In this document: positions 1 through 40,324 of the stretch, piece by piece
Position numbering within the stretch: the stretch's first letter is position 1
Layout: every line of letters begins with the position of its first letter
DNA from: Bacteroidota bacterium
GTDB taxonomy: Bacteria; Bacteroidota; Ignavibacteria; Ignavibacteriales; Ignavibacteriaceae
Direction: 5' to 3'
Assembly: GCA_021824565.1 (NCBI GenBank)
Contig: JAKAKL010000121.1
Coordinates: forward strand, 124,001 to 188,000
DNA length: 64,000 bases
Made by a program: the position numbers and the translations under genes
Notes under the pieces: generated by a model
Seen by the model: only the letters and a program-made list of their open reading frames with translations
Database searches by the model: none
Told to the model about the DNA's origin: nothing

Positions 1-202
1 ACTATTTATAAAAAAATTTAGCTATGTTTCTAACGATACCGTCAGCTACAACAGCATAGGCAATATTCAAAGTTCTTCATACCCGTTTGCTAAAGGAGAG
101 ATCCCCGCGGAACCGTTTATTTCAAGTTTTTGGGAACCTTTAGTAGCAATTGGAGCCACAGCTACGGCAGTACTTTTGTTTTTTACAATCCGCAGTAAGT
201 AG
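1..202 (+). CDS. C-terminal end of a membrane-anchored protein (5' end outside window)
   Basis: Reading from base 2, the frame is open to a TAG stop at 200-202 and gives about 66 residues. A polar stretch is followed by a hydrophobic segment (roughly W-E-P-L-V-A-I-G-A-T through L-L-F-F-T) and a short basic tail, R-S-K. This looks like a single C-terminal membrane anchor. The gap to the next gene is 74 bp on the same strand, so it probably belongs to the same operon. The family cannot be recognised from this fragment. Only the reading frame and the terminal membrane segment are directly seen. Confidence 0.6.
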   Translation, partial: LFIKKFSYVSNDTVSYNSIGNIQSSSYPFAKGEIPAEPFISSFWEPLVAIGATATAVLLFFTIRSK

Positions 203-38536: not shown

Positions 38537-38906
38537 TAACTCATGTTACGCAGACTTGCACAGAATAGTCCCGCCATTTATGGCGGGGTCTGACAAAATC
38601 CATCGAAATTGATGGGCTTTAGCCCATTGATAAATGCTAATATGGGCTAAAGCCCGGATTTGCCGGGGACTCTTTTCCCCACGCCATGTAGAGGCTGTGT
38701 TAAAACTCTAAGTCGAGAGGAAAACTCATCCCCCGACCCCTTCTCTTATAAAGAGAAGGGGCTTAAAATACGCTGCTAATGCAGTTTCTTAAAGTCCCTC
38801 TCTTGTTAAGAGAGGGATTTAGGGTGAGTTCTTTAACTGCAACTAAATTTTCACACAGTCTCTAAATGGCGCGGCTATTCTGTACAAGTCTACGTAACGT
38901 GAGTTA
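38537..38906. mobile_element. MITE-like element 2 (370 bp) with nested palindromes
   Basis: Two 44-bp arms, 38537-38580 and 38863-38906, are inverted copies with 39 of 44 matches; each begins TAACTCA[T/C]GTTACG. Inside are further inverted repeats: a ~24-bp pair at 38682-38705 and 38848-38871 (GAGGCTGTGTTAAAA-like), CCCGCC/GGCGGG near 38571, GGGCTTTAGCCC and GGGCTAAAGCCC, CCCCTTCTC/GAGAAGGGG and CCCTCTCTT/AAGAGAGGG. No ORF. The outer 16 bases match those of element 1 at 14 of 16 positions, so the two are related. Confidence 0.7.
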
Positions 38907-39129: not shown

Positions 39130-39360
39130 GTGACGCCAAATTTAAATGAATCAAAACCGGAACAGCCGGTTATTAACACGTACAGACTGTGCCCCTCGTG
39201 CGGTAATTTCTGCCATATCAACGAGACGCAAATATTTTGTATCATCTGCGGAGAGATGATGATACATGAATGCCCTAACTGCAAAGAACCGATTTTATAT
39301 CCAACGGCTAAGCACTGCCATAAGTGCGGTAAACAATATAAAAATAAATTTAATTCTTAA
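39130..39360 (+). CDS. Small double zinc-ribbon protein
   Basis: A 76-residue protein from GTG 39130; no in-frame ATG gives a better start. Two zinc ribbons are visible: L-C-P-S-C-G ... F-C-I-I-C-G and E-C-P-N-C-K ... H-C-H-K-C-G. This double ribbon is used for protein or nucleic-acid contacts in many small adaptor proteins. It lies 18 bp upstream of the next gene, so the two are probably one transcript. It has no catalytic domain. Confidence 0.7.
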   Translation: MTPNLNESKPEQPVINTYRLCPSCGNFCHINETQIFCIICGEMMIHECPNCKEPILYPTAKHCHKCGKQYKNKFNS

Positions 39361-39378: not shown

Positions 39379-39852
39379 ATGTCAACACAAAACTTAATTT
39401 CAGCGAGCATTACGCCGGAACAAAAAGCGGCGATAGAAGAAAAGTTGAATGGTCTAAAAACAGACCTCGGCTTCGTTATCTCTATGGTAACCGGAGAAAG
39501 GCTTGAGTATATAAGAATAGGTAACTTGATGCTGCCGTTTCTGGATAAGGCGCATCGTGTAGCAACCGCTCATCCGGAAATACTACCCGGCGTTTTCGAT
39601 AAGACGGAGTATGATAAAGATTATCAGTTAACTAAAGACCTTTTTGAAATAGGATCCAAAATAGCTGAATTACACTCATCCGTTCAGGCAACCTTATTTG
39701 CAGCCAACAGCGATACAATGATGGAATCACTCGAGGTTTATGCTTTTGCACAGGCTAACGAGAAAAAAGTTCCAGGGCTTGAGGTTGACGTTGCAGAAAT
39801 GAGAGCGTTCTTTAAAAAAGGTCCTAAACCGCCGAAACCACCGGCACAATAA
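39379..39852 (+). CDS. Small helical protein next to the 21-bp repeat array
   Basis: A 157-residue protein with a good ribosome-binding site (AAAGGAG). It is almost wholly helical: S-I-T-P-E-Q-K-A-A-I-E-E-K-L-N-G-L, an L-P-F-L-D-K-A-H-R-V-A segment, and V-Y-A-F-A-Q-A-N-E-K-K-V-P-G-L-E near the end, then a proline-lysine tail (K-K-G-P-K-P-P-K-P-P-A-Q). I believe this is a recurring but uncharacterised Bacteroidota-type family (M-G-x ... F-V/L-x-K-A ... V-P-G), often beside short tandem repeats; that is from memory. The array begins 77 bp downstream on the same strand. Function unknown. Confidence 0.65.
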   Translation: MSTQNLISASITPEQKAAIEEKLNGLKTDLGFVISMVTGERLEYIRIGNLMLPFLDKAHRVATAHPEILPGVFDKTEYDKDYQLTKDLFEIGSKIAELHSSVQATLFAANSDTMMESLEVYAFAQANEKKVPGLEVDVAEMRAFFKKGPKPPKPPAQ

Positions 39853-39928
39853 TTACTGTGTCTTTGAGCCTTAAGAGAGAAAAAATCTGCCACTAAGTCA
39901 CCAGGACACTAAGAAATATCGGTTTTTA

Positions 39929-40180
39929 ATATTGTCGCAAGGGTTTGGCAAATTATACTGACCATTAAATAAATCCTCCGGAGGGTTTTGAAAGCTATAC
40001 GCAGGATTACCGAAATGATTCGGAGTATTTACAAAACTCTTCCGGGAGTTCTTTGAATGGTACTGAGGGTTTGTGAAACCGGCGGGAGAATTTAACAAAC
40101 CCTCCCGACCATTTAATAAACCCGGTAGAGGGTTTCAAAGACCCTCTGGAGGGTTCTGTTAACCCTCGCGAGGGCTTAAA
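39929..40180. repeat. Array of twelve 21-bp palindromic units
   Basis: The 252-bp block divides exactly into twelve 21-bp units with no spacer. The frame is AAA at positions 1-3 and TTT near 16-18, and the core is variable. Units with self-complementary cores include 39971 (AAATCCTCCGGAGGGTTTT), 40034, 40118, 40139 and 40160. Others, such as 40055 (GAATGGTACTGAGGGTTTG) and 40097 (AAACCCTCCCGACCATTT), are complementary to each other rather than to themselves. It does not encode a protein: reading frames in both directions hit stops or lack starts. It is not a CRISPR, since there are no separate spacers. Confidence 0.8.
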
Positions 40181-40324
40181 TAATGCTAATGAGCACAGAA
40201 TTAATGATTGATAACACATTTGAAGTTTTCGAAAGAACTTTAGAAGTTCTTTTGATATTTACAGAGGCTGCTAGAAAATTTATAAGTGCTTAAGTTTTAA
40301 TAAACTTATAGAAAGGATAAACAC

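Follow-up and report, generated by a model that had tools for sequence, protein, structure and literature searches.

Why should the gene for a small helical protein be followed by a row of about a dozen short palindromic units, and do the two belong together? The question is raised by a locus in a 64,000-nucleotide stretch of a Bacteroidota bacterium contig, which we call the window. Its features are listed below, with the strand given where one applies.

39130–39360: open reading frame for a zinc ribbon, upstream of the founder gene (matches to PF13248 and PF12773)
39379–39852, + strand: founder gene of the family, coding for a 157-residue helical acidic protein (pI 5.4), from the open reading frame and ribosome-binding site
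39814–39849, + strand: code for the C-terminal tail KKGPKPPKPPAQ, following a conserved aromatic residue (tail set by alignment)
39853–39919, + strand: linker from the stop codon to the array, with no terminator-like hairpin found in it
39920–40195: array of about 13 palindromic 21-bp units, consensus AAACCCTCC.GGAGGGTTT plus 3 bp (cyclic-profile fit)
39971–39988: best single palindromic unit, with 8/9 pairs
40118–40177: palindromic units at 40118–40135, 40139–40156 and 40160–40177, each at most 2 mismatches from AAACCCTCNNGAGGGTTT

The original prediction had described twelve contiguous 21-bp units at 39929–40180, downstream of a small helical protein gene with a good ribosome-binding site. 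The cyclic-profile fit places the array at approximately 39920–40195, or 13.1 units, so that the twelve lie inside it and were right to within one unit; the gene does have a GGAG ribosome-binding site, and its stop is 76 nt from 39929. Self-identity at a shift of 21 is 0.554 over 231 bp at the array, which is the maximum of the whole window (mean 0.282, standard deviation 0.037; second-best place 0.416). Neither TRF, at its threshold, nor a direct-repeat finder detected the array, because its units have drifted too far apart. The AAA...TTT frame, described as fixed, proved to be a tendency: in the same phase, exact AAA opens 7/12 units and exact TTT closes 7/12. The consensus is palindromic (p = 0.005, the permutation floor), and the four units singled out as self-palindromic, starting at 39971, 40118, 40139 and 40160, are so, as listed above. 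The upstream frame was correctly called a zinc ribbon, but nothing indicates that it belongs to the locus, and zinc ribbons are absent from the 14 largest recurrent neighbour clusters (116 loci). Upstream of the locus, between genes at 38573–38700, the window also has palindromic sequence of dispersed appearance, with CCCGCCATTTATGGCGGG and a GGGCTTTAGCCC pair.

The original prediction had also put forward that genes of this family are repeatedly accompanied by such arrays, and a check of homologues bears it out. The 3′ flank (500 bp after the stop) is periodic in 87/118 family loci, compared with 2/109 family 5′ flanks and 10/388 flanks that follow other open reading frames of those loci; at least one of the ten hits is a family array approached from a different frame. 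Periodicity was called at a period of 20–22 or 41–44 bp and a self-identity of at least 0.52, and 3/121 loci were too short. By profile score (at least 75), arrays are found at 132/165 family loci as against 7/150 control flanks, leaving out L069, a spurious 1-kb low-information fit that would make the count 133; at 33/165 family loci no array passed the profile score. When periods from 12 to 60 were allowed to compete, all 78 loci with self-identity of at least 0.55 chose 21, 41, 42, 43 or 44, and the array period in passing 3′ flanks is 21 or 22 bp. The median number of units per array is 12, and the median distance from the stop to the array is 82 bp. Arrays accompany 130/151 loci whose protein combines the aromatic residue with a tail of three or more residues, versus 2/14 of the others, which are mostly distant or truncated members. 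The gene with its dedicated array is thus a real recurrent locus, because the family recurs beside palindromic arrays of about 21 bp in distant genomes.

In two loci of one Bacteroidota subfamily (L078 and L080) the array lies on the 5′ side instead, that of L078 being built on AAAATTTT palindromes. L051 also has, about 2.6 kb before the stop of the family gene, a near-exact tandem repeat with a 43-bp period (self-identity 0.97) that is separate from the family array and has no relation to it.

Several different copies of the gene can share one genome. The window's genome has six at full length, with a 21–43-bp period in the 3′ flank of five (the exception being L045b); four of the six pass the profile score, the failing copies being L041 (48) and L045b (43). 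DNA search of this genome found no second copy of the window array. A profile built from five of these copies located the family in 26/296 genomes and 19/140 genera of a phylum sample, and later profiles in 33/148 genomes of one family and 23/72 of one genus. A single scan covering 84,980 species genomes turned up 320 relatives, and the 80 best were fetched; altogether, 166 distinct family proteins were fetched, with 165 loci testable for arrays. Relatives are spread over a number of environmental bacterial groups: Ignavibacteria, Melioribacteraceae, Cytophagales (Algoriphagus, Aquiflexum, Cyclobacterium, Marinoscillum), Chitinophaga, Maribellus, KSB1, Marinimicrobia, Caldithrix and one Pyrinomonadaceae bin; one genome considered below (G070, contigs matching Ignavibacteriae isolate NAT134) is of the same order as the window's. 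The loci are mostly on large contigs of chromosomal size. We rejected phage or plasmid cargo, as there is no relative among 50,697 phage records (one query) or in viral contigs (two profiles), and one on a plasmid, in Candidatus Thiodictyon, with no array there by eye.

The only widely recurring neighbours are T9SS-sorted proteins (17/116 loci), which are common in the taxa carrying the family. The array was rejected as a promoter of the next gene, the next open reading frame being on the same strand in 64 cases and the opposite strand in 42. Genome G202 has the same frame of about 120 residues 3′ of three gene–array modules (L060, L061, L063; L269:919–1353); it looks helix-turn-helix-like by eye, and has been copied together with one array.

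The 157-residue protein has no convincing relative in Pfam, NCBIfam, PADLOC, PHROG or PDB, and a Pfam scan of 40 members matched no known DNA-binding family, Rep family or Y1 transposase. Weak single-member Pfam matches (best 0.00024, Gag_p15) and the best hit of a PDB profile search (E 0.0017, the TPR protein IFT70) were taken as chance. Fold searches gave a best PDB match of E 1.1, a best viral-library match of E 0.8 and a best VIA Z of 4.5. The AlphaFold2 model (pLDDT 94.2, pTM 0.75) is all helical and includes one helix of 52 residues; at 1.5 Å per residue its length is about 78 Å, arithmetically close to the 71 Å of 21 bp. Net charge is −3.83 for the acidic body and +1.69 for the first 8 residues of the basic tail. 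Tail charge is positive in 106/127 array-bearing proteins, and 22 of about 127 have tails with fewer than 2 K/R.

What kind of sequence is the array? The consensus is palindromic in 80/97 arrays, as would be expected if the array were transcribed and folded into hairpins bound by the protein, possibly like the RNA array of a type III toxin–antitoxin system. Type III systems likewise carry a terminator between array and gene, and in the window, where a terminator-like hairpin between gene and array was sought and none found, read-through transcription is therefore possible. The units at 40055 and 40097 are complementary, as the original prediction observed, but the folding deduced from this is not borne out: in the 80 palindromic arrays, bases pair no better, inside a unit or from one unit to another, than the column frequencies would lead one to expect, and reverse-complement identity between units is 0.48 at every near lag. 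Paired positions in these arrays show an observed/expected ratio of 1.005 at distances 1–20 (n = 19502) and near 1 at other distances, where a simulated positive control with compensation at 10% of positions around one dyad gives 1.033; G–T and A–C mismatches are both at expectation. Strand skews are near zero (AT 0.08, GC 0.05 on average), a hairpin with a T-run lies between stop and array in 60/96 loci (22/96 on the opposite strand, used as a yardstick), and an Rfam scan of the window gave no match. ToxIN, the type III example, has near-identical RNA repeats upstream of the toxin gene with an intrinsic terminator between them; the present loci resemble it in having tandem array and gene parted by a terminator, but the array is 3′ (87/118, as against 5′ in 2/109), diverged and without RNA covariation. 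No ToxN-type endoribonuclease was matched by Pfam (40 members) or by fold, although a missing fold match does not exclude one. The structured, transcribed array originally envisaged is thus not supported, and we regard an RNA of this kind as improbable.

The decaying minisatellite, put forward as the alternative, fares no better. A neutral repeat beside the gene by chance might gain and lose whole units, as minisatellites do, and some close pairs show this: L126 and L137 differ by +21 and −21 bp, and L128 and L133 by −63 bp. Differences of whole units only are clean in 2/12 close pairs, with L136/L140 in addition if 19+2 is one unit, the remainder having smaller or mixed gaps in their arrays; and some such periodicity is seen in the 7/150 control flanks. 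Mean identity between units is however only about 54%, and since the period is kept despite this divergence of about 46%, the array is not an ordinary decaying minisatellite. The register fit, which penalises indels, has 69 indel steps in 1212 units, and none in 67/96 arrays. One narrow period recurs beside one gene family (all 78 strong cases fall within 21–22 or 41–44 bp), arrays beside unrelated genes are rare (10/388 and 7/150 flanks), and neither the palindromic consensus nor the tail–unit correlation described below favours neutral drift, which makes this explanation very improbable. A third reading takes 21 bp as 7 codons of a heptapeptide-repeat protein. More arrays are open throughout in a frame (35/96) than the 22.9 expected from column shuffles, but 61/96 have no open frame, as suits the earlier judgement that coding was unlikely; periods of 22, 43 and 44 bp occur; and a three-base rhythm of conservation reaches p < 0.05 in 1/91 arrays. 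We give it hardly any credence. What survives of the original interpretation is therefore a gene with a dedicated recurrent array, while neither structured RNA nor a decaying minisatellite is supported.

The arrays have the look of double-stranded DNA sites set in phase, one every two helical turns. Unit identity is higher at even lags (0.575, 0.565 and 0.550 at 2, 4 and 6) than at odd lags (0.528, 0.544 and 0.532 at 1, 3 and 5), and this excess is a true 42-bp super-period.

Some arrays include, or end with, a G-rich unit of 21 bp resembling TGAAGTGGGAGGGGGTACTTC, in phase and sometimes as an inverted pair. It is alike across phyla, which the other units are not, and a loose pattern finds it in 27/97 arrays, some of the matches being weak; the loci include L055, L057, L058, L090, L113, L126, L128, L141, L142 and L155. 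Its exact form occurs in 1/296 phylum genomes, both occurrences being at an array.

An indication of what may read these sites comes from the tail. Among the relatives compared, near-identical bodies with different tails have different units. Over 120 loci with 21-bp arrays, the partial correlation of tail with unit, given body, is 0.61 for 143 pairs at 70–97% body identity, 0.21 for 1534 pairs at 50–70% and 0.13 for 5460 pairs below 50% (p = 0.002, the permutation floor; the pairs are not independent). The idea arose on relatives that were reused in the tests, 33 of the 120 loci in the main test being new. An unbiased scan of close pairs with 10-residue windows gave 0.51 and 0.61 for the tail windows, and 0.30 for the best other window (46–55); coding windows 126–140, just before the tail, gave r of about 0. 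No close pair combines tail similarity above 0.6 with unit similarity below 0.45. Eleven close pairs have similar units and tails scored as different, some through alignment offset, the chief of them being L103/L123 (common unit, 0.97; dissimilar tails). Where the tail has [NQ]G, the unit tends to have ACTG/CAGT and AACT/AGTT (20 versus 56 phylogeny-collapsed groups, familywise p = 0.0007). The first hold-out of this association was not blind, other [NQ]G tails being already known; under the stricter removal of the 22 previously noticed loci, the familywise p is 0.037 (9 versus 56 groups), and 0.0002 for ACTG alone. The nearest relative of the window locus, L046, has only 47% body identity, too distant for a tail–unit comparison, and we propose the window tail KKGPKPPKPPAQ as a DNA-reading segment by its likeness to relatives. 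The idea that the array stores alternative codes for the tail was rejected, since the last 57 nt of the gene score 12.20 of 18 against their own array and 12.13 against others (80 loci).

A correlation of this kind could also arise by joint recombination, if the array were bound by some other conserved DNA-binding protein encoded elsewhere. Tail and array are adjacent, and sharing of lead DNA itself correlates with unit similarity (r = 0.37, or 0.20 after tail); L126 and L128, both in the genome of Aquiflexum gelatinilyticum, have bodies 94% identical and different units; L103 and L123 have one unit and different tails; and the G-rich unit is kept across phyla, as if for one common reader. Against this, tail r is 0.54 after controlling for body, synonymous sites and lead DNA, GC content changing nothing, and 0.51 in the 58 pairs without shared lead 8-mers. 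Synonymous sites of codons 120–145 have r = 0.06 with the unit, the windows adjacent to the tail show no correlation, and the tail effect persists below 0.55 body identity (r = 0.15, n = 6447, p = 0.001). We therefore consider another reader unlikely, while exchange of tail and array as one cassette keeps some weight because the two adjoin on the DNA.

Because the tail changes in step with the unit, we suggest a DNA-binding protein of an undescribed kind with a private row of sites, and think it reasonably probable that the locus is a two-part DNA–protein system in which the palindromic units are read by the tail of the protein encoded beside them. About a dozen palindromic double-stranded sites would make up the array, spaced at 21 bp, or two helical turns, which would put them all on the same face of the helix. 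The protein of the neighbouring gene would bind them, to judge from the tail–unit correlation: its short basic C-terminal tail would read the unit, and its acidic helical body would probably form an oligomer along that face. The unit sequence would then differ from one family member to the next and depend largely on the tail. The acidic body and the lack of a match to any known DNA-binding fold or family speak against the predicted DNA binding.

A fuller version, which we put forward tentatively and think rather less than even in its chances, is a self-addressed coating of DNA: the basic tail of 8–12 residues would be a swappable DNA-reading peptide, the in-phase private array would be coated as a filament on one face, and several such orthogonal landmarks per chromosome could be bridged to second arrays at other sites. 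That the complex acts as a centromere, anchor or bridge and not as a transcription switch is a guess, and a doubtful one. A landmark, anchor or bridge is preferred to a switch because the orientation of the next gene is not fixed and because, unlike a transcription factor with a regulon, the window's genome lacks scattered operators, the window unit occurring at one other place with at most 2 mismatches; private specificities, several per genome, and the second arrays in trans point the same way. If the proposal is right, the family would be an undescribed one of DNA-binding proteins whose sequence preference is set by a short tail instead of a folded domain, its hundreds of natural protein–site pairs (320 relatives in one genome collection) would be material for learning a recognition code, and the locus would be a new chromosomal landmark, several per genome, with possible roles in segregation, anchoring and genome organisation. 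A full-text literature search found no description of such a gene–array locus.

Several known systems invite comparison. Plasmid partition systems (ParR/parC, TubR/tubC, ParB/parS) have a small DNA-binding adaptor beside phased short repeats, with private specificities, and here too a row of helically phased repeats adjoins a gene. Unlike them, the 14 largest neighbour clusters (116 loci) include no ParA, ParM or TubZ NTPase, and nothing like ParR, TubR or ParB matches the protein; a terminator precedes the array in 60/96 loci, contigs are mostly of chromosomal size, and there are several copies per genome. Iteron-type plasmid origins combine a Rep gene with iterons of about 20–22 bp, and the direct repeats here are likewise about 20–22 bp (two helical turns) apart beside a gene, but the units are palindromic and much more diverged, there are many copies per chromosome, and 40 members gave no replication-initiator match in Pfam. 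REP palindromes and BIMEs are alternating palindromic units beside genes, associated with a RAYT transposase; palindromic units adjoin a gene here as well, although no Y1 transposase was found in the family (Pfam, 40 members) and the units are not dispersed in the window's genome. Like CRISPR, the locus places a row of short units next to a dedicated gene. As the original prediction held, these are not CRISPR repeats: the units are contiguous, with a mean identity of 0.54, no constant repeat with unique spacers and no cas-type match.

Three other genomes (G070, G166 and G202) each contain one or two further whole arrays of one family unit; one array type was queried per genome. G070 has an array with the units of L047 and the same G-rich end at C3, with no family gene there. 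G166 has, 1.5 Mb away from the gene, nine to ten units with a similarity of 0.94 to those of L054 and of 0.24 to the other array of that genome. The array of L063 recurs twice in G202: at C7, in a 94% identical duplicate that retains only the last 40 nt or so of the gene, and at C11, where the terminator is present and the gene is not. Searches found no second copy of L057's array, no further array in G194 and isolated words only in G137. One gene-less array copy lies approximately 350 bp downstream of a gene for a ParA-like ATPase (L270:1039–2091 and 2440–2700), probably by chance.
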